A stretch of 30,397 nt of DNA from a virus: the IMG/VR virus record IMGVR_UViG_3300021225_000391, positions 1 through 30,397 of that record. The stretch is one strand, 5' to 3'. Of this stretch, positions 1 to 30,397 are shown one piece after another (positions within the stretch are counted from its first letter, which is position 1; each line of letters starts with the position of its first letter). A program made the position numbers and the translations under genes. The notes under the pieces were generated by a model that worked only from the letters and a program-made list of their open reading frames with translations, was not told where the DNA came from and ran no database searches.

Positions 1-1031
1 ATTTTTACGAAATATCTTTTGTAAAAGAGCAGGAAATTATTCTCAGGACACCATATACTGGAACATCAGAGCCTCAAGTTGCACTATATAAGTCTATTAA
101 CTTTATACAGGATGACTCTTTAATAACTGTAAACTGCTTAGGTTACGAAGAGTCTGGGCTATGGCTTAGAACACCGTCGGACGCTGTTAGACATATGATT
201 CTCAATGATGCTGGGTTTGCATCTGTAAATGAAGCTTCATTTCTGGATGCTAAAAACTCATGTGATTATACTGTCTCCATCGTTTCACCACCAACATTAG
301 GCGGAAAACCTGAAGCAATTCGTGATGTAATCACCAAGATTAATGAATCAGTTTTTGGATCATTGTATGGAGATAGTTCAAATACTATTTCTTACTCAAT
401 ACTTAACTCTGATAAACCTGTTATACCACAGATAGTCGGTGATGATGATATAATCTCTTACGGGGCGGACTCTTACGGTAAGTTTTATAATGTTATTGTT
501 GTGAACTATAGGCCGTTTGTCGATCAGGTAACAGGGGAAAGCACAACTGACAAAATCACTTTTAATTCTGAATTTGTTAATTCATTTTTACAAGTAACAA
601 ACACGCTAGAGAAAGATGTCTACCTGTACGAAGAAAGCAAAGCTCAAATCATGGCGGAAAGATTGGCATTGTTTAACTCGCTAAGTCGAACAAAAGTAAC
701 ACTTAGAGGGAAAATGAACTTCTTTCTTAACTCAATTAATGACCGCATAACGCTTAATCTTGATCGGTTGTTTGCTAGATATTCCTCTAACGATAGAAGA
801 AGAATCGGTGTTGTGACTGGTATTAAGAGATCACAGTCAGAGGTCGAGCTAGTGTTGAGTGATTTAGGGAATATTTTTAACAGAATTCCATCTATTGCAC
901 CAAGTACGGCGGTGATTTATACCTCTGCAAGCGATAACGATAAGCTTCAATATGGTTACATTCTTGACAATATTACGTTAACGCCTGACACTAGTAGTGA
1001 ACAAGGTCTAGGATCGACTTTAATAGGGTAA
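1..1031 (+). CDS. Tail hub/tip-like protein, C-terminal part (5' end outside window)
   Basis: The frame is open from base 3, so the first ATG (195) is internal and about 342 residues of the C-terminal part are present. The product is a mix of beta and helical segments; a stretch near positions 780-870 (RRRIGVVTGIKRSQSEVELVL) resembles the late beta domain of tail hub or tail-associated proteins, an inference from pattern only. It is followed at 3-nt spacing by fibre-like genes. The gene truncated at 30244 is the natural candidate for its missing N-terminal part, because distal tail, hub and fibre genes normally follow in that order. It could instead be another tail-tip protein. The tail assignment is fairly firm; the hub role is not. 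Confidence 0.6.
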   Translation, partial: FYEISFVKEQEIILRTPYTGTSEPQVALYKSINFIQDDSLITVNCLGYEESGLWLRTPSDAVRHMILNDAGFASVNEASFLDAKNSCDYTVSIVSPPTLGGKPEAIRDVITKINESVFGSLYGDSSNTISYSILNSDKPVIPQIVGDDDIISYGADSYGKFYNVIVVNYRPFVDQVTGESTTDKITFNSEFVNSFLQVTNTLEKDVYLYEESKAQIMAERLALFNSLSRTKVTLRGKMNFFLNSINDRITLNLDRLFARYSSNDRRRIGVVTGIKRSQSEVELVLSDLGNIFNRIPSIAPSTAVIYTSASDNDKLQYGYILDNITLTPDTSSEQGLGSTLIG

Positions 1032-3656: not shown

Positions 3657-3899
3657 ATGCAATTTGTGGCTCTTGTTCTTGCTATCGCCAAGGCCGTCCC
3701 AATTATTGACAGATGGTTGGGGCTTATAGTTTTGGAGTACGTTAAGCATAAACAAGAGCAACTTATTAAACTAAATAAAAAGATCATTGAAGAAGCCCTT
3801 AAACTTAAAGATCAAAGAAATATTGAAGATGAAGAACATAGTGGTGAAGTTTCTGGCTCTGGTGATATTGTTGACAGCCTTCCCAGGATGCGTCACTAG
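3657..3899 (+). CDS. Candidate inner-membrane spanin (Rz-like)
   Basis: 80 residues, starting 2 nt after the preceding stop. An N-terminal hydrophobic stretch (residues 3-28, interrupted by a few charges) is followed by a long charged helix (about 29-60) suited to a periplasmic coiled coil. The out-of-frame lipoprotein gene that starts at 3829 within its 3' end gives the classical Rz/Rz1 nested arrangement. Spanins bridge inner and outer membranes and fuse them in the last lysis step of phages of Gram-negative hosts. The call rests on architecture rather than on sequence similarity. Confidence 0.55.
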   Translation: MQFVALVLAIAKAVPIIDRWLGLIVLEYVKHKQEQLIKLNKKIIEEALKLKDQRNIEDEEHSGEVSGSGDIVDSLPRMRH

Positions 3900-4122
3900 A
3901 AGCCGACTTAATGCCTATTTGTGGTTTGGTATAGCAATACCCGAAGATATTTGTGAAAAGACACCAGAGATAAAAGAATATGGTGTTTATAGGCGTTTAA
4001 ATGACGGAAGATTTGAGTTTGTCTCAATATGCTCAGATGAATATGAGCAATTCTTTTCAATGCGAAAAACCGATTTAGAGAGGTTACTAAATGGAAAAGG
4101 TCGGAAAGAAAGCTCTAAATAA
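3829..4122 (+). CDS. Lipoprotein, candidate outer-membrane spanin (Rz1-like)
   Basis: 97 residues from ATG 3829. The open frame extends upstream to a TTG at 3787, but only the ATG places a lipoprotein signal at the N-terminus: basic start (MKNIVVK), hydrophobic core (FLALVILLTA), then FPGC with C21 as the lipidated residue. The first 71 nt lie inside the Rz-like gene in another frame. At 97 residues it is longer and less proline-rich than many o-spanins, so it could also be another lysis-linked lipoprotein. Confidence 0.6.
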   Translation: MKNIVVKFLALVILLTAFPGCVTRSRLNAYLWFGIAIPEDICEKTPEIKEYGVYRRLNDGRFEFVSICSDEYEQFFSMRKTDLERLLNGKGRKESSK

Positions 4123-5665: not shown

Positions 5666-6242
5666 TAATACCTCTTTCATAATTATAAAGCTCTTCCCTA
5701 CTTGTTAGCGGAAGAAGTTGTTTAATAATTTCTAAACAAGCATGAGCATCTGATTTAGCATCATGGTGGTTTAGCTTAATTCCTAATTGCTTGCATATAT
5801 TATCAAGCGAAAAACCTTCAAATGTAAAGCGACCCTGTAAAACTTTTGCAAGGCTATGGGTTGAATATGGTTTAAGCTTGTTAATCATATGGTATGGATA
5901 ATCACCCATATTAAGCATATTTATGCGCATAATTGCATAATCATAGGGAACTAATTTGCCGTACATTTTAGAGTTTGTATGACACCAAAATTCCTTTGCA
6001 CCAGACAAAGCAATCCAATTTATGAGGTCTTCATAAACCTCGCCAAATTTTCTGTACTTACTCGCCTGTTTCTGAGTTATCCCATGAACCGCTTCGGCTT
6101 CATATGACCACTTAAACGGACAGCATTTAATTTCACGCTCTGAAATAATATTAAAATTCTCGTCAACATGAATAAAGTGACCCGTCAAAATCTCAGCTTC
6201 AAAAACATTTAAGCTCGTTGTTTCTAGGTCAACGATTATCAT
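5589..6242 (-). CDS. DnaQ-like 3'-5' exonuclease (DEDDh)
   Basis: 217 residues. The three exonuclease motifs are visible: VDLETT (D5, E7), PYDYAIMR (D101), and HHDAKSDAHA (H160, D165), which define the DEDDh group of RNase H-like 3'-5' exonucleases. These remove nucleotides from DNA or RNA 3' ends and here probably serve recombination, replication fidelity or nucleic-acid turnover. The start overlaps the ssb stop by 4 nt (ATGA). The last 35 residues or so are polar and low in hydrophobic residues (RPGRRNSKQPK) and lie in the region shared with the next gene. Confidence 0.87.
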   Translation of the reverse strand: MIIVDLETTSLNVFEAEILTGHFIHVDENFNIISEREIKCCPFKWSYEAEAVHGITQKQASKYRKFGEVYEDLINWIALSGAKEFWCHTNSKMYGKLVPYDYAIMRINMLNMGDYPYHMINKLKPYSTHSLAKVLQGRFTFEGFSLDNICKQLGIKLNHHDAKSDAHACLEIIKQLLPLTSREELYNYERGINEDTNRPGRRNSKQPKTSSRITSIF

Positions 6243-6553
6243 GCTACTTCTTTTGCACTGGTAAACTGAGATTCAACCACTACGATTTGGGTCTTTGTAG
6301 CACCATCTTTTTCGTAATAATCAAGAGTCCCGTCAACGTATAGCTCCTTCCCTTCAGTTAAATACTTGCCAAGAATCTCAGCAAGCTTCCCATAGGACAC
6401 ACACTGATGGAATAGAGCCTTATCTTTCTGACCCTCGCCCATCTTCTTATAGGTCATGAGAGTGAAAAAAGTAATTGGCTTTCCATTCTTTGATTCGATC
6501 ATTTTAGTGTTGTAACACTTACCTAGCAGAATAACTTGATTTACGCCTAACAT
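6239..6553 (-). CDS. ssb: Single-stranded DNA-binding protein
   Basis: 104 residues from ATG 6553, which has AAGGA just upstream; an ATG at 6604 is in frame but would encode a lysine-rich low-complexity extension. The OB-fold pattern is typical of SSB: MLGVNQVILLGKCYNTK, ITFFTLMTYKK, HQCVSYGKLAEILGKYLTEG, LYVDGTLDYYE. It lacks the long acidic C-terminal tail of host SSB and ends soon after the OB core. It coats ssDNA during replication and ERF-mediated annealing, and is followed by the DnaQ-like gene at ATGA. Confidence 0.87.
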   Translation of the reverse strand: MLGVNQVILLGKCYNTKMIESKNGKPITFFTLMTYKKMGEGQKDKALFHQCVSYGKLAEILGKYLTEGKELYVDGTLDYYEKDGATKTQIVVVESQFTSAKEVA

Positions 6554-6587
6554 TTTATCCTTCTTTTTTCTTTTAATTATTAATTTA

Positions 6588-6623
6588 ACCCTGACCGTAA
6601 CCATGACCCTGACCCTGACCTTA
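6588..6623. repeat. Six tandem hexamers upstream of ssb
   Basis: The plus strand reads ACCCTG ACCGTA ACCATG ACCCTG ACCCTG ACCTTA, six head-to-tail six-base units that all begin with ACC (three identical). The array sits about 35 nt upstream of the ssb start and about 25 nt past the stop of the preceding gene, in otherwise T-rich DNA. Such an array could bind a protein or RNA regulator, or be an origin-like iteron set; neither is shown. Confidence 0.65.
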
Positions 6624-6647
6624 AAAGTTTTTGTCTTTTTACTCGAG

Positions 6648-6914
6648 TCATTTTAATTGTCCAAAACTCTCAATGCAGTTCTTTTGGATGCAGAACTCCG
6701 CAACACACAAGCTCTGTTCATCTTTATATTTATTCTCACTAAAGGAGCCAGTTTCATAAACGATCGCAGGGTCTTTAATTAAGACGCAGGTATCATTTAC
6801 ACCGATCAACTCACCCACATAAATATAATTAAGACAAAAAAATGTTACCCTTTTCCCCATCAAATTTAGCATACCTTCGTTCTCAACTTCAGTTACTTGA
6901 ATTAGCTTTTTCAT
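6648..6914 (-). CDS. Conserved small phage protein, beta-barrel-like
   Basis: 88 residues. The pattern (VTFFCLNYIYVGELIGVNDTCVLIKDPAIVYETG, then a C-terminal IESFG) is familiar from small phage proteins of unknown function. Regular short strands separated by G and N suggest a small SH3- or Sm-like barrel, an inference. The start at 6914 has GAGAGGG upstream, formed by the end of the ERF gene, with only 2 nt between the genes, so the two are probably translated together. Confidence 0.6.
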   Translation of the reverse strand: MKKLIQVTEVENEGMLNLMGKRVTFFCLNYIYVGELIGVNDTCVLIKDPAIVYETGSFSENKYKDEQSLCVAEFCIQKNCIESFGQLK

Positions 6915-6916
6915 AC

Positions 6917-7498
6917 CTACCCTCTCTTATTAGCTTGCTCGATTAGAGAGCTTGCTTCTGATTTTGTAATGTCATCATTAAATTTTACGCCTAGCTTTTT
7001 AAGTAGCGATTTCTGAGCATCACTAGCGGGGCCAGATAATGGCTTTTGCTGACCTATGCCATCGACTTGAAAGGTAGGCTTAATCACTTCTTTTTGAGTT
7101 TGCTTAATAGGATAAGAATCCTGTGGCATAGATACCGAATTACCATCATCGTCTTCGTCTGCAGTAGAAATACCGAGTAAAGCCTGAAGCTGATAACGCT
7201 TATAATATGTAATCAAAGATCCGAGTTTTTGTGGATCGTTCAAAATAGTAATAGGCATCTCGGAAATAAGTTCTTCGCCTGACTCATGGATAAGCTTAGT
7301 GATTAGGATCGTAATCGAATCCTGTACTCTCATGGATTGAATTATCGCAAGACCACAATCTGCCAACGGTTGCCTTACTGCGTCCAGGATACCAGAAAGC
7401 GTAAGATAATCACTTTTAAAAAATGGATTTTGAGCGTCTTTTTTAATTGGCTTAAGATTAGCGTGAAACTTTACGAGAGCCTGACTGATACTTTTCAT
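6917..7498 (-). CDS. erf: ERF-family single-strand annealing recombinase
   Basis: 193 residues. The N-terminal 125 residues match the ERF superfamily pattern: helical start (SISQALVKFHANLKPIKKD), NPFFKSDYLTLSGILDAV, PLADCGLAIIQS, LGSLITYYKRYQLQALLGI, then the acidic ADEDDDGN. A linker of about 30 residues leads to a short C-terminal helical domain (SDAQKSLLKKLGVKF). ERF proteins anneal complementary strands in phage recombination or genome circularisation, with SSB and the nucleases downstream. The start has AGGGG at good spacing. It overlaps the preceding gene by 41 nt. Confidence 0.9.
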   Translation of the reverse strand: MKSISQALVKFHANLKPIKKDAQNPFFKSDYLTLSGILDAVRQPLADCGLAIIQSMRVQDSITILITKLIHESGEELISEMPITILNDPQKLGSLITYYKRYQLQALLGISTADEDDDGNSVSMPQDSYPIKQTQKEVIKPTFQVDGIGQQKPLSGPASDAQKSLLKKLGVKFNDDITKSEASSLIEQANKRG

Positions 7499-7685
7499 TT
7501 GAAACCCCTGTTAATTTAATATTGAACTTTTTGGCAACTTCATTTATCGCCCAATCGAGCTTTTGTTTATCACTTTTTCTAGGACAAAGGCAACGTGTTT
7601 GACTAACAATTTCTTCTTCTTCCCTGAGTGAGTAATAAAGATCATATTCATAGAAGCAATATGGGCAAATTACAATCTCGCTCAT
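7458..7685 (-). CDS. Small zinc-ribbon-like protein
   Basis: 75 residues. CPYC at residues 7-10 and a C-x-C pair (RCLCP) near residue 32 form a likely zinc ribbon, followed by a helical basic C-terminus. It overlaps the upstream gene by ATGA and the ERF gene by 41 nt. Zinc ribbons of this size in early phage operons often bind nucleic acid or host transcription proteins, but no specific role can be claimed. Confidence 0.6.
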   Translation of the reverse strand: MSEIVICPYCFYEYDLYYSLREEEEIVSQTRCLCPRKSDKQKLDWAINEVAKKFNIKLTGVSNEKYQSGSRKVSR

Positions 7686-7867
7686 AGGTCACCTATGTAA
7701 ACAAGCTCACCAGACTCAAGGTCTTCTTCAAGCTGAAATAGAAACGGAACAACATCCTCTGTCATGATCTCGCCATACTGACCTAATAAATGAATCTCTT
7801 TCTTAGTTTGCCAAAAGACTAAAAGCTCGCCTTTGCGATTAGATAAAATAAATTGACGCTTTTTCAT
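7682..7867 (-). CDS. First gene of the leftward early operon, hypothetical
   Basis: 61 residues. The sequence (KKRQFILSNRKGELLVFWQTKKEIHLLG) suggests a small beta-rich N-terminal part and an acidic C-terminus. The ribosome site AAAGGGG is well placed before ATG 7867. It is the first gene after the leftward extended -10 promoter at 7897-7905, so it would be expressed earliest. No family is recognised. Confidence 0.6.
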   Translation of the reverse strand: MKKRQFILSNRKGELLVFWQTKKEIHLLGQYGEIMTEDVVPFLFQLEEDLESGELVYIGDL

Positions 7868-7896
7868 TTAATACCCCTTTTGTTTGGTAGGTAATC

Positions 7897-7905
7897 ATTA
7901 TAGCA
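7897..7905 (-). promoter_or_regulatory. Extended -10 promoter for leftward early operon
   Basis: On the minus strand the sequence is TGCTATAAT, a perfect TGnTATAAT extended -10. The -35 region is poor, as is usual for extended -10 promoters. The predicted start near 7890 gives a leader of about 23 nt before ATG 7867, containing the AAAGGGG ribosome site. Confidence 0.7.
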
Positions 7906-7957
7906 CAATTTCGATCAAGTAAACTTAAGATTGTAAAAATTACATATTTAACATTTA

Positions 7958-7974
7958 TAGATAGTTGCTATCTA
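7958..7974. promoter_or_regulatory. Perfect dyad, candidate operator
   Basis: TAGATAG-TTG-CTATCTA is a perfect 7-bp inverted repeat with a 3-nt centre, about 55-75 bp upstream of the leftward promoter. Size and symmetry fit a site for a dimeric helix-turn-helix regulator such as the XRE-type protein encoded at 10587. No second copy was noticed by eye. Confidence 0.5.
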
Positions 7975-8000
7975 ATAATTATATAGATCGTTTAATTTAC

Positions 8001-8020
8001 AAATCATTAACAAATGATTT
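8001..8020. promoter_or_regulatory. Perfect dyad, candidate operator
   Basis: AAATCATT-AACA-AATGATTT is a perfect 8-bp inverted repeat with a 4-nt centre, lying between the two divergent promoters, about 40 bp upstream of the rightward -35. Its sequence differs from the dyad at 7958, so two regulators or two roles are possible. Confidence 0.5.
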
Positions 8021-8059
8021 AAATCTTTATTACCGTTCTATGGGATTCTTAATTCACCA

Positions 8060-8088
8060 TTGATTGAGCAGGAAGAGACGGTTATATA
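8060..8088 (+). promoter_or_regulatory. Rightward sigma70-like promoter
   Basis: TTGATT, a 17-nt spacer, then TATATA. It is the only well-formed rightward promoter in the control region. Transcription would start near 8095 and give a leader of about 280 nt containing the long hairpin before the first gene at 8375. Confidence 0.6.
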
Positions 8089-8143
8089 CTGCCATGAAAC
8101 CTTGAATTAAGCTTTATACCGGATACCTCAAAGTGATAACTAA

Positions 8144-8241
8144 CTTAAGGATTGAAGGGAAGAGGCAAGGGATATTATTCTTAGTTTAAAGACTGTGAAG
8201 GAATTATCTCCCTAGTTATTCTTTTCCCTTGTTTCCTAAAG
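8144..8241 (+). ncRNA. 98-nt imperfect hairpin, candidate structured RNA or leader element
   Basis: Three stacked helices can be drawn. Outer: CTTAAGGA (8144-8151) with TCCTAAAG (8234-8241), 7 of 8 paired. Middle: AAGGGAAGAG (8155-8164) with CTTTTCCCTT (8221-8230), 10 pairs including one G-U. Inner: AGGGATATTATTC (8168-8180) with GAATTATCTCCCT (8201-8213), 11 of 13 paired. A symmetric 3x3 loop, an asymmetric 3x7 loop and a 20-nt apical loop complete it. It lies about 50 nt after the predicted start of the 8060 promoter and holds no reading frame. It could be a leader switch, an RNase III site, a small RNA or an origin element. The structure is drawn by hand, without an energy calculation. Confidence 0.6.
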
Positions 8242-8374
8242 TGATGTTTATTAATACATACTTACTAAGAACTTTCTTAATGCTTTTCTGTTATTGGTTG
8301 CACCCAAAGATTCTTATTGACTGGTAAACATTACATAATTTGACTTAACTAAATTTGATTGTAACCATATTAGC

Positions 8375-9343
8375 ATGGATAAGATTTCACTTCATGACAT
8401 GCTAGTAAAACTCAGAGATCTTGCTAAGAAGTTAGATAAGACACCAACCTCTAGAGAGTTTATTGCATCGGGTGTTTCTTGGAGACAGATTAGAAACCAA
8501 GGTGGATATAATAAATTAGTTGAGTTATTGGGCTTAGAGTTTAATCAATCTTCCCATACTTCAGAGCCTCATGAACTTCTTATTAGGCCGCCAAAGATTC
8601 TTATCTTTGACTTAGAAGTAGCTCCTGCCATTGCTTATACATACAATTTTAGAGAAGCCTTCATTAATCCTGAGAACATTATCCAAATGCCCTATATTTT
8701 AGCTTATTCAGCTAAATGGTATGGAGAGGATAGGGTTTATTATGGTGACACCAGAAACACGCCTAAAAACGATTTAAAGCTCTTACAAGAGCTATCTGAC
8801 TTAATAGCTGAAGCTGACTATGCCTGTGGGCACAACCTCAAGAGATTTGACCTTCCAACAACACGGGGCAGAATGATCATTGAGGAGATGATGCCACTTA
8901 AAAAGGTTGAGGTTATTGATACTTTGAAGATAGCTTTCAGACATTTTAAATTCCCTTTTTATAAGCTTGGAGAGTTGGCCAAATACCTTAAGTGTGAACG
9001 TGCCAAACTAGATCATGGAAAATTCCCAGGAACTTCATTATTTACTGAAGCTGATAAGGGCAATCTAGAAGCATTCATTGAAATGGAGGCTTATTGTAAA
9101 ATGGATAGTTTAGTGACTGAAGAGGTTCTTAAAAAGCTCATGCCATGGGAGCCATCAATTAACTTTCAGTCATTTTATCAGAAAAGAATATGCTCATGCG
9201 GTTCAGAACAGTTTAAGAAAGATGGGTTTCAGTATGGCCCTTCAAGTGCTCGCCAACGCTTTGCTTGCGTTAAATGTGGAAAAGGTTTTGTGCATAAAGA
9301 CAACATGCTAGATAAGAATATTAAAAAAGAGCTTATTAAATAA
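8375..9343 (+). CDS. DEDDy-type exonuclease with zinc ribbon
   Basis: 322 residues. Residues 10-55 resemble the short helix-rich repeat seen next to homing nucleases (TPTSREF...GVSWRQIRNQGGYNKL). Residues 74-255 form an RNase H-like exonuclease: FDLEV (D79, E81), GHNLKRFDLP (N154, D159) and YCKMD (Y240, D244), that is, the DEDDy set of polymerase B-type or YprB-like exonucleases. Residues 273-301 carry CSCG and CVKCG, a C4 zinc ribbon. No polymerase domain is present. The ATG has no clear Shine-Dalgarno. As first gene after the control region, it probably acts early in DNA processing. Confidence 0.78.
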   Translation: MDKISLHDMLVKLRDLAKKLDKTPTSREFIASGVSWRQIRNQGGYNKLVELLGLEFNQSSHTSEPHELLIRPPKILIFDLEVAPAIAYTYNFREAFINPENIIQMPYILAYSAKWYGEDRVYYGDTRNTPKNDLKLLQELSDLIAEADYACGHNLKRFDLPTTRGRMIIEEMMPLKKVEVIDTLKIAFRHFKFPFYKLGELAKYLKCERAKLDHGKFPGTSLFTEADKGNLEAFIEMEAYCKMDSLVTEEVLKKLMPWEPSINFQSFYQKRICSCGSEQFKKDGFQYGPSSARQRFACVKCGKGFVHKDNMLDKNIKKELIK

Positions 9344-9403
9344 AAGCGTCTTAGTCGGACATTAAATTGTTTTAAAAGTGACCAATCTTGATACGCTTTA
9401 AGT

Positions 9404-9727
9404 ATGAAGAAACTACCAAAAAACGTGACAATATTTGGCCGTAAAATACCTGTTTATTCTCTTTCCTCTGAAGAAATTAAAAAGCTATACCCTGAATTTA
9501 ACCAAGCACCGCAAGGACTTTGGGATTCATGCCATAGAAAGATTGTAATCAATTCAGACTTCCCACTTCTTGACCAAAAATACACCCTTAATCATGAAAT
9601 GGCTCACTCAGTCATGACCTTTGTTGGGTTAGATTTGATCATTGATCCATCTCTACAGGAGGTCATTGTTCAAACCATGGCCACACTAATTGAGGATGCA
9701 CTAAATCAGTCGCAGCTTTTGAAATGA
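9404..9727 (+). CDS. Small HExxH metalloprotein (ImmA/SprT-like)
   Basis: 107 residues. The zinc motif HEMAH lies at residues 64-68 with a downstream Glu (E86) as likely third ligand (LQEVIVQTMAT). The N-terminal half (GRKIPVYSL, GLWDSCHRKIVIN) matches small phage metalloproteins related to ImmA/IrrE or SprT. ImmA-type proteases cleave repressors, so a role near the XRE gene at 10587 is imaginable but not shown. No Shine-Dalgarno is visible before ATG 9404. Confidence 0.7.
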   Translation: MKKLPKNVTIFGRKIPVYSLSSEEIKKLYPEFNQAPQGLWDSCHRKIVINSDFPLLDQKYTLNHEMAHSVMTFVGLDLIIDPSLQEVIVQTMATLIEDALNQSQLLK

Positions 9728-9978
9728 ATATTCTATTTATAAATACTGGTTATCTTCCAAACCATGAGGAATGGGTTAGGTTAGAGAATATCCAGCGAGA
9801 GATTGCAGGATGGAGAGCGGAGCTTCATAGAGATTTTGAATTAAGAAAGTTTACACCAGGGGAAAGATACCTATCTAAACAGAGATTTCATAACGGCATA
9901 CGTCAAAACTGGAAAATATTTCAGGGCTTCAATATAAAAGATTCAAACACTCTTTACTTACCTAACACTTCAAATTAA
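9724..9978 (+). CDS. Hypothetical protein coupled to HExxH gene
   Basis: 84 residues, overlapping the preceding stop as ATGA. It is rich in Arg, Trp and aromatic residues (HEEWVRLENIQREIAGWRAEL), mainly helical in the middle, with no known motif. The tight coupling suggests that it works with the metalloprotein, perhaps as a partner. Confidence 0.5.
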   Translation: MNILFINTGYLPNHEEWVRLENIQREIAGWRAELHRDFELRKFTPGERYLSKQRFHNGIRQNWKIFQGFNIKDSNTLYLPNTSN

Positions 9979-9981
9979 CTT

Positions 9982-10006
9982 TACCTCCACAAAATCAGTG
10001 GAGGTA
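9982..10006 (+). promoter_or_regulatory. Hairpin burying a Shine-Dalgarno
   Basis: TACCTCCAC (9982-9990) and GTGGAGGTA (9998-10006) form a perfect 9-bp stem with a 7-nt loop. The right arm contains GGAGG, the very strong ribosome site for ATG 10011. In the folded form the site is fully paired, so translation should be low unless the hairpin is melted, by a protein, by coupling or by temperature. There is no T-run, so a terminator is unlikely. Confidence 0.7.
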
Positions 10007-10010
10007 TTAA

Positions 10011-10583
10011 ATGATTTATAATGATTGTGTCAAAAGAGCTAAAGAGCTTTTAACGCAAATTGAATGTCATCAGGTTGAAATTGCCTATCTTGCTACTATC
10101 GTGTGTGAAATAAAACACGGTGGAAGACAAACATCCAAAGAATATAATTTAACAAAATTCGCTAAAGACATTGGAATGAATAGAAAAACACTTTCTGGGT
10201 GGGTGTTAATTTACAAAAACATTATTAAAAAAATAGGAATAAACTATAAAGAAGTTTCAAAATCGGACTGGGAAAAGGCTAATTTAATTGACGAATACAT
10301 CAGGCAAGAAATTAGAATCATGCAAACGATTGATGGGAATAAAAGAAAGAAAGGCGCATACAAAGAACTTTCCGAAGATTACGTAAGAGACTTATATGGA
10401 AAAGCTTATTCAACTATTGAACTTCAGCAAAAAGTTAATAATTGGAATAGATACGTTATTTTTATAAAAAACAACCTACAATCAAAAGATTTGAATTTAG
10501 TAAGTGCTTCTTCTTTGTTGTCTATAAAAGAAAACATGGATGCAGCTTCGGACACTATTTTAAGACATTTAAGAAAAGGATAA
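10011..10583 (+). CDS. Putative helix-turn-helix DNA-binding protein
   Basis: 190 residues. Residues 48-70 (KFAKDIGMNRKTLSGWVLIYKNI) resemble a helix-turn-helix with a MNRKTLSGW recognition helix. The rest is helical and lysine-rich. The gene lies between the hairpin-controlled ribosome site and the XRE regulator. It could be a replication or transcription regulator; no family is recognised. Expression is probably restrained by the hairpin at 9982-10006. Confidence 0.5.
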   Translation: MIYNDCVKRAKELLTQIECHQVEIAYLATIVCEIKHGGRQTSKEYNLTKFAKDIGMNRKTLSGWVLIYKNIIKKIGINYKEVSKSDWEKANLIDEYIRQEIRIMQTIDGNKRKKGAYKELSEDYVRDLYGKAYSTIELQQKVNNWNRYVIFIKNNLQSKDLNLVSASSLLSIKENMDAASDTILRHLRKG

Positions 10584-10586
10584 AAA

Positions 10587-10880
10587 ATGATTATTCATTC
10601 TAATGAAGTCGCTAATTTAATGAGAAACCGTAGACGTGAATTAAAAATGTCTCAAGTAAAACTATCGGGAATGGTAGGATTTTCAGAGCGTGAAGGTCAA
10701 TTCGTAAGTAATGTTGAACGCGGAAAATGTCAATTTCCTGTAAGATATATTTCAAAACTTGCCAATGCTCTTGAAGTATCAGAGCTAACAATTATAGAAT
10801 TAATGGCCAACGACTATAGAAATGCAATTATTAAAGAGGTATTAAATGCATCTGAACTATCTAATCAAACAACTAATTAG
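10587..10880 (+). CDS. XRE-family transcriptional regulator (Cro/CI-like)
   Basis: 97 residues. Residues 6-66 form a typical XRE helix-turn-helix: LMRNRRRELKMSQVKLSGMVG, FVSNVERGK, and YISKLANALEVSELTIIELM. A short C-terminal helix follows, with no protease or dimerisation domain of the CI type. The ribosome site AAAAGG lies before ATG 10587. It may act on the dyads in the control region at 7958 and 8001, an inference. Confidence 0.8.
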   Translation: MIIHSNEVANLMRNRRRELKMSQVKLSGMVGFSEREGQFVSNVERGKCQFPVRYISKLANALEVSELTIIELMANDYRNAIIKEVLNASELSNQTTN

Positions 10881-17591: not shown

Positions 17592-18176
17592 ATGAGTACC
17601 GACAATGCAGCCAGTGGCGCACCTCAAGATTTGTCCAGTGGACAGCCTGAGAATCAATCCAATGACAAAGTGAGTTATGACACTTACCGTAAAGTACTTA
17701 ACGAAGCTAAGAAGCTAAGAGAAGCTTTTAAGCAAGTTGAGGAAGAAAAGCAGCGGTTAAGTGAACAGAAACTTCGTGAGCAAAACGAGTGGAAAACTTT
17801 AGCTGAGCAATATAAGACAAAGCTAGAGGACACCACTAAGACACTTCACGAACAAGAAGCTTCTATTGTTAATGGAATGAAATATCAGGAATTTGAGAAG
17901 CATTTAGGCGGAAGACTCAAGGATCAGGAGTATGCCACTTTTGTCCCATTCGACAAAATTGCAATTAATCCTGAGACAAAACGTGTTGATGAAGAATCTG
18001 TTAAAGGTGCAGTTGCCGATTTTGTGAAGAAGCACTCGCATTTAGTAGAATTTCAGTCAGGTGCTAAGCTTCCAAACGAAGCGGCTAGACCAGGATCAAT
18101 TGGCACAAAACCGCTAGAAGAAATGTCTTCAAGCGATATTATGAACGAGCTAAGAAAAATTGGAAAATTAATTTAA
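17592..18176 (+). CDS. Scaffolding protein
   Basis: 194 residues from ATG 17592; ATGs at 17583 and 17586 are in frame behind the same AAGGAG at 17576-17581, and spacing does not settle the choice. It has a disordered start, a long charged coiled coil (about residues 25-85: KVLNEAKKLREAFKQVEEEK), and a C-terminal helical part. This is the plan of phage prohead scaffolds, and it stands directly before the major capsid gene. It guides capsid assembly and then leaves or is degraded. Confidence 0.82.
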   Translation: MSTDNAASGAPQDLSSGQPENQSNDKVSYDTYRKVLNEAKKLREAFKQVEEEKQRLSEQKLREQNEWKTLAEQYKTKLEDTTKTLHEQEASIVNGMKYQEFEKHLGGRLKDQEYATFVPFDKIAINPETKRVDEESVKGAVADFVKKHSHLVEFQSGAKLPNEAARPGSIGTKPLEEMSSSDIMNELRKIGKLI

Positions 18177-19549: not shown

Positions 19550-20115
19550 GAATAGTTTTTAACCCGACTACTTCAAAGCTTGATTTTGTAGGGACGCAAG
19601 ACGCTCTTATAACTCAAGTTTACAATAGATCAGGCGCAACTATTACAAAGGGAAGTGTAATTTATTTAAATGGGTCACATGGGAACCTTCCTACCATTGC
19701 ACTAGCACAGGGAAACTCTGAAGCAACTTCTAGTAGGACTTATGGAATAGTCCAATACACTCTCCCAAATAATTCTATTGGAACAGTTATTCATGCAGGA
19801 CTTCTTCAAGGTCTAGATACTCAAAGTATTGCTGTTGGTGTTCCATTATATCTTTCGCCCATTGTTGCGGGTGGAATAACTTCTATCAAGCCGCAAGCTC
19901 CTGACCACATGGTTTTTATCGGAATGTGTACTAGAGCGCATCCAACCCAGGGCAGAATAGAGGTAACTATTGCAAATGGTTTTGAGTTAAACGAACTTCA
20001 TAACGTACAGATTGTGTCACCTACTGACGGACAGATTCTTTATTTTGAACAATCTTCTAATTTGTGGAAGAATATGGATGATAAGTCCCTTATTAACGCT
20101 CTTATTTTTGGATAG
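19546..20115 (+). CDS. Beta-rich virion protein
   Basis: 189 residues from TTG 19546, overlapping the preceding TGA. Residues 20-140 are Gly- and beta-rich (VYNRSGATITKGSVIYLNG, then VGVPLYLSPIVAGG), as in decoration or fibre-associated domains. The C-terminus SLINALIFG is nearly repeated at the end of the protein ending at 21034. A decoration or fibre-attachment role is inferred. Confidence 0.6.
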   Translation: MRIVFNPTTSKLDFVGTQDALITQVYNRSGATITKGSVIYLNGSHGNLPTIALAQGNSEATSSRTYGIVQYTLPNNSIGTVIHAGLLQGLDTQSIAVGVPLYLSPIVAGGITSIKPQAPDHMVFIGMCTRAHPTQGRIEVTIANGFELNELHNVQIVSPTDGQILYFEQSSNLWKNMDDKSLINALIFG

Positions 20116-20480: not shown

Positions 20481-21034
20481 ATATAGTAGTAACTGAAGAA
20501 GTTTCTAAAGTTATTGTTGTAAATGAAGTTCAGCCAAAAGTAGTCACTGTTAATCAAGGACTGCCAGGATTGAGTTCAATTACACCATTAACTGAAACTA
20601 CTATTTCAGGATTACTAAAAGGTAGCTCTGGTCTTGTTTCTGGTGCTGTTGCCGGAACAGATTATGAAGCTCCTATATCCACTGGGACTACTTCTCAATA
20701 TTGGAGAGGTGACAAGTCCTGGCAAACATTAGATAAATCCGCAGTCGGTTTGAGCAATGTTGATAATACTAGCGACGCAAACAAACCAATCTCGACGGAT
20801 ACTCAAACTGCTCTTAATCTAAAATATGATTCATCAAATCCAGCTGGGTATGTAAATAGTTCGGGAGCAGCCGCAGCCTCGCCTGTCCAGTCAGTAAACT
20901 CATATACTGGTGCTGTTGTTTTAACTAAGAGTGACATTGGGCTAAGCAATGTGGATAATACTAGTGACATCAGCAAGCCGGTGTCTGTTGCGCAAAACGA
21001 GAACTCGATTATTAATGCGCTTATTTTTGGATAA
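20477..21034 (+). CDS. Fibre-like protein with repeats
   Basis: 185 residues. The tail-fibre repeat GLSNVDNTSD occurs twice (about residues 91-100 and 155-164), each followed by KP(I/V)S. N-terminal part: short beta (IVVTEEVSKVIVVNEVQPKVV). C-terminus IINALIFG. These repeats are typical of phage fibre shafts, though here the gene sits in the head-tail region and is short. Confidence 0.72.
   Translation: MNIVVTEEVSKVIVVNEVQPKVVTVNQGLPGLSSITPLTETTISGLLKGSSGLVSGAVAGTDYEAPISTGTTSQYWRGDKSWQTLDKSAVGLSNVDNTSDANKPISTDTQTALNLKYDSSNPAGYVNSSGAAAASPVQSVNSYTGAVVLTKSDIGLSNVDNTSDISKPVSVAQNENSIINALIFG
20747..20776 (+). repeat. Fibre repeat, copy 1
   Basis: A 30-nt unit encoding GLSNVDNTSD; 25 of 30 bases match copy 2 at 20939-20968. 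Part of the fibre-like gene. Confidence 0.7.
20939..20968 (+). repeat. Fibre repeat, copy 2
   Basis: A 30-nt unit encoding the same GLSNVDNTSD peptide as copy 1, with most differences silent, showing that the peptide is conserved. Confidence 0.7.
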
Positions 21035-27122: not shown

Positions 27123-28977
27123 GTTCCGACTTAAGGTCATTGAAGATAAGCTCGGAATAGCACTAGATCAAAACGAAAAGAAAGCCAAATCACTAGGTGA
27201 CACACTGTCTGTCGCCGTTGGTACATTTGCCGGACAAGCTGCAATCAAGGGATTCAGCCTTCTAGGCAATGCTATCGGATCAGTAAATGATTTTATCTTT
27301 GATTCAATCAAAGCTTCGGCCGAACAAGAAGCCGCTCTTAATAGATTGGGTCAAGCTCTTAAGCAAACGGGGGACTTCTCTCAAGGTGCATTAGATGATT
27401 TTAATGCATTCGCTTCAGAGCTTCAAAAATCATCTATATTTGCCGATGAAGTAGTCCTTGGGCAGATTGCCATTGCTAAATCATTTGGAGCAACAAACCA
27501 ACAGGCTAAGGACTTAGTACAGGCAGCGGCTAACCTTTCAGCTCAGTTAGGTGGATCACTAGAAGAAAACGTATTTAAACTAGCAAAAACGCTAAACGGT
27601 GAGGTTGCTAGGGGCTTCAAGGCAGCAATTCCAGAACTTAAAAGCTTGTCTCAAGAAGCCTTAAATGCCGGAGGTGCAATTGATATCGTTAACCAAAAAT
27701 TTGTAGGATCGGCTCAGGCTCAACTAGAAACTTATTCAGGTTCACTTACTGCCCTGACTAATGCCTTTGGTGATTTACAAGAAATTGTTGGCGATACAAT
27801 CACTCAGTCTGATTTTGTTAAGGGTGTTTTCAGCTCAATATCAGAGGCAATAAATAGCACGATAGCATCTATTCAAGAATATCAAGCTCAGCAAAAAGTT
27901 TTGAATCAAGGATTTGTTGATAATCAATCTGAGATTAACGCTCTTTCTGGTGACTATGCAGACTTAACATTAGAGATAGAAAAGCAGCAAGCTATTATAA
28001 ATAAGCAGGGCCCAAATAAAGCTCTTGTTTCTACGGCTGAAATTCAAATTGCTGAAACAAAAGTGAAGTCATTAAGTTCCGAAGCTGAAAAGCTTTTTAA
28101 AATAATTAATGTTAACCAACAAGCTATTGCATTAGAAGATAAAAAAACAGGTGGTGATCCTGCGGCTAAGGTTAGGGAAAAAACAGTTCAAGAACTTGCA
28201 GCAATAGAAGAACGAAATATTGCCATAAGAGAACTAGAAAACCAATTTGCGCTGGAGTCTAATCAATTTGAATTAGAGCAAGATATAGCAGAAAAAGAGC
28301 GTTATGGTGTAAAGACTGCGAGTGATATTGAGGCGCTTACTTCTTTTGAATTAACAAAGTCTGAATTGATGTATCAGGCAGCAATGGACAGAGCTTCAAA
28401 TCTTGCAACAATAGAAGAGCAAGAAGCGGCAAAGTCTAAAGCTATTCTAGATAAAAAGAATAGAGATCAGAAAATAGGTGCAGACAATAAAAAGAAGTTA
28501 TTGGATCAAGAAATAAAAGACCAAGAAGCATTCTTTAGTGCAGCAACTTCTCTTTCTAGCTCAAAGAGCAAAGAGCTTGCAGCCATAGGAAAAGCCGCTG
28601 CGCTTTATGAGTTATCAATTAAGACGCCTCAAGCGATAGCTTCATCATTTGCATTCGGTTCGAAAACTGGTGGTCCTGCTCTTGGTTATACATTTGGAGC
28701 AATTGCTGGAATAGCAATGGCGCAACAGGCTGCAAAAATTGCCGGAGTTTCTGGTTTTGCAAATGGCGGTATTGTTGGGGCAACTTCAGGGCCAGACAAT
28801 GCACTAGCTACTGTTAGGACAGGCGAGATGATTCTTAATGCTGAACAACAGCAAAAGTTATTCAGCCAGATAAATAATGGCGGAAATGGTGGCGGAAATA
28901 TCGTGATCCAGATAGATGGAAGAAATATCGCCTACGCTGTCAGGGATCAAATTAATCAAGGCTTCAAACTTACTTAG
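27106..28977 (+). CDS. Tape measure protein
   Basis: 623 residues. Hydrophobic stretches near residues 36-60 and 525-550, helical and coiled-coil regions (about 265-500), and the typical C-terminal pattern SGFANGGIVGATSGPDNALATV, GEMILNAEQQQKLF. At the rule of thumb of 0.15 nm per residue the tail would be about 93 nm. Directly after the chaperone, as in other siphoviruses. Confidence 0.92.
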   Translation: MAESIEFRLKVIEDKLGIALDQNEKKAKSLGDTLSVAVGTFAGQAAIKGFSLLGNAIGSVNDFIFDSIKASAEQEAALNRLGQALKQTGDFSQGALDDFNAFASELQKSSIFADEVVLGQIAIAKSFGATNQQAKDLVQAAANLSAQLGGSLEENVFKLAKTLNGEVARGFKAAIPELKSLSQEALNAGGAIDIVNQKFVGSAQAQLETYSGSLTALTNAFGDLQEIVGDTITQSDFVKGVFSSISEAINSTIASIQEYQAQQKVLNQGFVDNQSEINALSGDYADLTLEIEKQQAIINKQGPNKALVSTAEIQIAETKVKSLSSEAEKLFKIINVNQQAIALEDKKTGGDPAAKVREKTVQELAAIEERNIAIRELENQFALESNQFELEQDIAEKERYGVKTASDIEALTSFELTKSELMYQAAMDRASNLATIEEQEAAKSKAILDKKNRDQKIGADNKKKLLDQEIKDQEAFFSAATSLSSSKSKELAAIGKAAALYELSIKTPQAIASSFAFGSKTGGPALGYTFGAIAGIAMAQQAAKIAGVSGFANGGIVGATSGPDNALATVRTGEMILNAEQQQKLFSQINNGGNGGGNIVIQIDGRNIAYAVRDQINQGFKLT

Positions 28978-28987
28978 TTGGTGAATA

Positions 28988-29746
28988 ATGTCATGCTTAA
29001 AATTCTTTAATAATAATTTAGTTGATACGGCGGTTATTACTCCAAGCTCAGAGGATGCAACATTCCCAGCATCTAACCTTAAAGACCCTAGGAGAACAAA
29101 AGTATTTAGAAGCAACACAAGCTCGGACAATATCGTTTTTGATTTTGGATCAGCTCAAAATATTGATTCATTCTTTATAGTTGGTGATATAAGAACAGGT
29201 TTAGGTGTTGCAACGGTTACGCTTCAGTTAAATTCGTCTAATTCGTGGGGAAGCCCTGCCTTCTCCCAAGTAATCACATTAGACACTGTTTTTAATATGG
29301 GCATTAAAATATTCACCCAACAAACCTATAGATATGCCAGATTAATATTAACTTCAGGGGCTTCATTCTGTGAGGTTTCTAAGGTGTTTATTGGTAAGCA
29401 TATCGACTTAGGAAGAGGCCCTTCATTTAACTGGTCATATCAGAGTGATGATCTTTCAAAGATTCAAGAAAACCGCTATGGTCAGAAATTTGTTGATACA
29501 ATTATCCGACAAAAAAAGCTCAATCTTTCATTTTCTTTATTGTCAAAAGATCAACTTGATCAGTTATTAGAGATTATTGACTCAAAAAGTTATACTTTGC
29601 CGTTTTTCATTGAGTTAGGTGATGATACGATAATATCAAACCACAATCGTTTTAGTGGTATGGTTTATCTGTCATCTGTGCCTAGTATTAGCAATTCAAG
29701 CTTTTCAAGGTATGCAGTGACTTTGCAACTTGACGAGGCAACATGA
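28988..29746 (+). CDS. Distal tail-like protein with discoidin-like domain
   Basis: 252 residues. Residues 20-130 (FPASNLKDPRRTKVFRS, NIVFDFGSAQNIDSFFIVGD, YRYARLIL) resemble an F5/8-type (galactose-binding) beta sandwich; the C-terminal half (GPSFNWSYQSDDLSKIQENRYGQ, FSGMVYLSSVPSISN) suits a distal tail or tail-tip module. It follows the tape measure, where the distal tail protein is normally found. The carbohydrate-binding role is inferred. Confidence 0.7.
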   Translation: MSCLKFFNNNLVDTAVITPSSEDATFPASNLKDPRRTKVFRSNTSSDNIVFDFGSAQNIDSFFIVGDIRTGLGVATVTLQLNSSNSWGSPAFSQVITLDTVFNMGIKIFTQQTYRYARLILTSGASFCEVSKVFIGKHIDLGRGPSFNWSYQSDDLSKIQENRYGQKFVDTIIRQKKLNLSFSLLSKDQLDQLLEIIDSKSYTLPFFIELGDDTIISNHNRFSGMVYLSSVPSISNSSFSRYAVTLQLDEAT

Positions 29747-29910
29747 ACAATGAACAAGAATGGCGTAATCGTCTATTTGATGAAATAAAAGAAGTCAGGC
29801 AAGACATTAAAGAAATAAAAACCGAGATGTTTTCCCTTAAATTAAAGGTTGCAGGAATAAGCTCTATTATCGGTTCACTGATTTCTTTAATGTTTAATAA
29901 ACTATCATGA
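29743..29910 (+). CDS. Small coiled-coil membrane protein (XhlA-like)
   Basis: 55 residues. Overlaps the preceding stop and the next start (ATGA on both sides). Layout: coiled coil (about residues 8-35: LFDEIKEVRQDIKEIKTEM) then one membrane span (VAGISSIIGSLISLMF). This is the plan of haemolysin XhlA-like holin-associated proteins, though it lies in the tail region rather than beside the endolysin. It could also be a tail-tip protein that engages the membrane during DNA entry. Confidence 0.6.
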   Translation: MNNEQEWRNRLFDEIKEVRQDIKEIKTEMFSLKLKVAGISSIIGSLISLMFNKLS

Positions 29911-30244
29911 GCACCTTTGCAGAATACTCTCAAAAATTAGTAAGCGAAAAGGTTACTTTAGTAACGTGTGAAGCTGCTCAATCGGCCAAGGTGTTTACTC
30001 TATATAGTGGAACAACTTATCAAAAGAGTGTTTCATACTTTGTTTCAAATGTTAAAAACTTTGGATATAACTTAATTCCTGGGGCTGATAAAGATTCACT
30101 AGGCGATGGAGAGTTTTATTACGATGTTGAGACAAAGATTCTTTACGTTAATATGCCAGATGGTTTATCTGGTCAAAATCTAGCTATCATATACAAGCAC
30201 TTTTTTTCAACTGCACCTCTAAGATTGCCTTATGATCTTAATAC
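29907..30244 (+). CDS. Tail protein, N-terminal part, truncated by adapter
   Basis: About 112 residues of genuine phage sequence (MSTFAEYSQKLVSEKV ... PLRLPYDLNT) up to 30244; the frame then reads on through adapter and unrelated sequence to a false stop at 30380. The sequence (DGEFYYDVETKILYV) fits a tail-tip or hub N-terminus. Together with the gene that enters at base 1 it probably makes one tail hub-like protein of about 455 residues or more. The last 45 residues of the apparent product must not be annotated as protein. Confidence 0.65.
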
Positions 30245-30308
30245 AGATCGGAAGAGCACACGTCTGAACTCCAGTCACCGATGTATCTCGTACTCCGTCT
30301 TCTGCTTG
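30245..30308 (+). other. Illumina TruSeq adapter with index CGATGT
   Basis: AGATCGGAAGAGC begins at 30245 and continues through the standard adapter to 30278; the six-base index CGATGT is at 30279-30284; the P7 end (finishing TCTTCTGCTTG) runs to 30308, with two mismatches (CT for TG at 30293-30294). The translation contains RKSTRLNSSH, the known contaminant peptide of adapter reads. Confidence 0.97.
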
Positions 30309-30397
30309 AAAAAAAAAAGGGCAATATTGGGTATTGTTAAATGTACACATGGCACAAAGTTGAATGTTTGTGGTCCATAAAGTTACTAATTACGATT
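30309..30397 (+). other. Poly-A and unrelated sequence after adapter
   Basis: Ten A residues (30309-30318), as often seen after adapter read-through, then 79 nt of unknown origin with a stop in each of the six frames, unlike phage coding DNA. Probably chimeric assembly extension. Confidence 0.85.

Follow-up and report, generated by a model that had tools for sequence, protein, structure and literature searches.

The DNA analysed here (the window) is an entire IMG/VR record, 30,397 bases long and classed as linear. Its 3' end carries a sequencing adapter, which begins 153 bases before the contig end in forward orientation and is read by the last predicted gene as protein. The features of the two contig ends are as follows.

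3..1031, + strand: genuine 3' part of a tail-region gene (342 codons and stop), with 29-57% identity to the C-terminal part of a single ORF in 15 relatives
29907..30244, + strand: genuine 5' part of the same gene (112 codons and 2 bases), matched by tblastn in 18 related contigs at 27-61% identity
30245..30278, + strand: TruSeq index-adapter stem AGATCGGAAGAGCACACGTCTGAACTCCAGTCAC, exact over 34 bases with 0 mismatches
30246..30380, + strand: false C-terminal 44 residues and stop of ORF 29907-30380, from the ORF translation
30279..30284, + strand: six-base index CGATGT, a listed index directly 3' of the stem
30285..30308, + strand: P7 end ATCTCGTACTCCGTCTTCTGCTTG (P7 reverse complement), 22 of the 24 bases of ATCTCGTATGCCGTCTTCTGCTTG
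30309..30318, + strand: run of exactly ten A, putative copy of the T10 linker
30319..30397, no strand assigned: 79 bases without a match, noise past the template or a chimeric join

Identity of the adapter

The only exact match to AGATCGGAAGAGC in the window was found at 30245-30257 on the forward strand, and 62 of the 64 bases of 30245-30308 were identical to the 64-base TruSeq index-2 adapter (stem, CGATGT and P7), CGATGT being the sequence of TruSeq index 2. Such agreement with a commercial oligonucleotide excludes chance. The original prediction of a TruSeq adapter at 30245 with a readable index was thus borne out, the 34-base stem being exact and the index legible at 30279-30284. It had also described the P7 end as readable base by base; P7 was indeed present, although not as a perfect match, as two substitutions (T>C at 30293 and G>T at 30294) both fall within it. 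These substitutions are unusual yet compatible with late-cycle read errors. Scattered errors in the P7 stretch were also seen in four of the control contigs described below (L019, L038, L058 and L089), and the 24-mer carrying both substitutions had no exact match in any other IMG/VR contig. A search of 30200-30397 against Rfam returned no family, and positions 30245-30318 hold nothing biological. A second adapter-like site at 27149-27161 was rejected as a chance match, having two mismatches where 0.51 such sites were expected.

The same adapter in other contigs

IMG/VR contigs with the same 34-base stem were used as controls; at least 120 exist besides the window, and 120 were fetched. In 119 of these, the stem started no more than 250 bases from the end of the contig or of the retrieved DNA, the largest distance being 247 bases, a limit consistent with a read length of about 250 bases. 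The only exception was L013, in which the stem lay 1,291 bases from the end; here the adapter (3889-3951) is placed 1.3 kb inside the contig with other sequence directly after CTGCTT, and this contig is likely to be a chimera. The controls repeatedly showed an index, P7 and a run of A after the stem, with many different indices, CGATGT itself following the stem in L007, L018, L036, L061 and others. After a complete P7, the commonest length of the A-run was exactly ten, at which nine contigs stopped and beyond which eight continued. Tails past P7 were mostly rich in A and C (A 0.40, C 0.26). The same adapter was furthermore found in 24 GenBank phage records from unrelated hosts.

False C-terminus of the last ORF

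The ORF at 29907-30380 encodes 157 amino acids and ends in YDLNTDRKSTRLNSSHRCISYSVFCLKKKRAILGIVKCTHGTKLNVCGP followed by the stop codon, its adapter part translating to DRKSTRLNSSHRCISYSVFCLKKKRAILGIVKCTHGTKLNVCGP and the stop. An annotation of the last gene had been predicted to be wrong, and the predicted protein is false from residue 114 onwards. Codon 113 is AC|A, with its third base derived from the adapter; because this codon specifies Thr with any third base, the number of wholly false residues is 44. The false protein end proposed earlier was therefore confirmed, with its count of 45 residues corrected to 44 and the 45th accounted for by the Thr of this degenerate codon. RKSTRLNSSH was present within the false end, as had been reported, and a literature search for this string gave no match.

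A tail-region gene divided between the contig ends

Single-sequence searches with the last and first genes of the window returned no relatives, and nor did a search of genome_contigs with an alignment of the neighbouring gene (28988-29746). An alignment of this neighbouring gene with one relative led to 33 related IMG/VR loci, 15 of which hold counterparts of both 29907-30244 and 3-1031. In all 15, the two parts were found in one open frame on one strand, separated by a median of 1,176 bases (about 1,170-1,185 in 11 loci and 1,386-1,407 in four), and the adapter was absent from every one of them. The complete frames encode 847-938 amino acids, with about 848 in the nearest such relatives. With a single open frame in every one of these loci, both ends of the contig fall within the same gene, about 1.2 kb of which is missing, and the adapter marks an assembly break within this gene. 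PHROG and Pfam searches returned no family for either part, so that a tail role is suggested by the place of the split gene, after the tape-measure gene and two further genes.

A circular map of about 31.4 kb is probable, from either a circular or a permuted genome. The contigs of two relatives are near this size, at 31.9 kb (L144) and 33.3 kb (L129). A search for terminal repeats of at least 20 nt between the two ends of the window found none.

Two side observations were made on gene content. The nearest relative, both by terminase (76% identity) and by the gene at 28988 (57%), was L124, in which positions 6001-10595, after the counterpart of the 28988 gene, hold different tail genes, including one for an 840-amino-acid protein, with no match to the split gene; this difference is a possible tail module exchange. 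Within the window, two genes share an end motif (SLINALIFG and SIINALIFG, at 20077-20114 and 20996-21033), with 83% identity over 35 nt.

Origin of the artefact

The adapter is almost certainly part of an untrimmed sequencing read that became fused to the contig end. The observations behind this conclusion are the match in sequence, the position at the contig end, other contigs built in the same way and relatives in which the gene is unbroken; from them we infer a read-through step. The library fragment, ending at 30244, would have been shorter than read 1, which would have gone on into the TruSeq index adapter ligated there, with its index CGATGT, and then into P7. The read may next have copied the linker that joins the primer to the flow cell as ten A, before making further base calls with no template left or being joined to something else. 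The assembler would have kept the end of this read as the contig end, splitting the single tail-region gene. Illumina's own grafted primers contain the 10-T stretch. The ten A fit a copy of the T10 linker of the P7 flow-cell primer, and a read-off into this linker would explain their fixed number. A 10-T stretch before the P7 and P5 primer sequences has been described as a design for surface-bound primers (PMC11123353). From the start of the adapter onwards, the contig holds 153 bases, too many for a single 150-base read; this implies either longer reads (the controls would agree with about 250 bases) or the joining of more than one piece.

A different account of 30245-30380 is that it forms the genuine, fast-evolving C-terminus of a phage protein, as might be supposed from a frame that stays open to 30380. 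This stretch begins, however, with 62 of 64 bases of a commercial adapter, and in the 15 relatives the gene extends hundreds of codons further in a different sequence. The identity of the adapter refutes a genuine C-terminus, the probability of which we regard as negligible, and nothing counts against the adapter itself. The fused read also accounts for the part of the original prediction that placed an adapter on the phage; the chimeric tail that it added is possible for the 79 unmatched bases, with base calls past the template being equally possible.

These two readings concern 30319-30397 alone and leave the adapter untouched. Base-calling noise past the end of the template, to which we give an even chance, would be expected to look like the unrelated, low-complexity A/C-rich sequence that follows the ten A in many controls, and the limit of 247 bases on the distance from adapter start to contig end is what reads of about 250 bases would produce. 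The tail is, however, C-poor and T-rich (A 25, C 9, G 18, T 27), unlike most control tails, those of L020, L055 and L090 being ones that resemble it in composition. There is close to an even chance that it is instead real DNA of another molecule in the sample, brought in by a chimeric library molecule, a mis-join through the ten A or signal from a neighbouring cluster. Its composition is closer to ordinary AT-rich DNA than to most of the A/C-rich control tails, and it scored 13.3 bits towards a phage-like composition against a noise profile, a score to be read with caution, since 79 bases are too short a stretch for composition to be decisive and the profile comes from other runs. Against real DNA stands the lack of a match in any collection searched: the tail had no exact-pattern match in viral_contigs or genome_contigs and no similarity match in plasmids, and gave chance-level matches only to phages (best listed E about 3) and to the relatives' loci and the proteins of the missing stretch. 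Signal from a neighbouring flow-cell cluster in particular is an unlikely source; were it the true one, calls made past the template could bring real foreign DNA into assemblies.

Discussion

Adapters at contig ends are an ordinary, common and already published database error. Of the 15,657 MGnify species genomes studied by Moeller et al. (2024; PMC11536531), 1,020 (FDR-corrected) to 1,110 (p < 0.01) showed adapter contamination, which was concentrated at the ends of contigs; contigs could join once trimmed, and viruses or phages are not mentioned in that paper. As in their cases, AGATCGGAAGAG lies here in forward orientation at a contig end, is followed by index-adapter sequence and coincides with a broken contig. 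Unlike their prokaryote genomes from MGnify, the present case is a phage contig from IMG/VR, and the read continues through P7 and ten A. Another likeness is offered by the case checked among the GenBank phage records with the adapter, Enterococcus phage vB_Efs26_KEN12 (PP582185.1), an unrelated phage in which a TruSeq adapter (17845-17920) lies near the record end and is covered by a predicted gene, WZP35516.1, annotated as 'hypothetical protein' on the opposite strand. Positions 17844-17975 of that record correspond to L123 1000-1131.

The significance of these results is one of data quality, in that the correction is useful and of little biological interest. The occurrence of the same stem in the control contigs means that the artefact extends beyond the window, and RKSTRLNSSH should mark TruSeq read-through in protein catalogues where the adapter is translated in this reading frame. 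For the phage itself, as the two contig ends share one gene, the 'linear' class understates how close the genome is to being closed.
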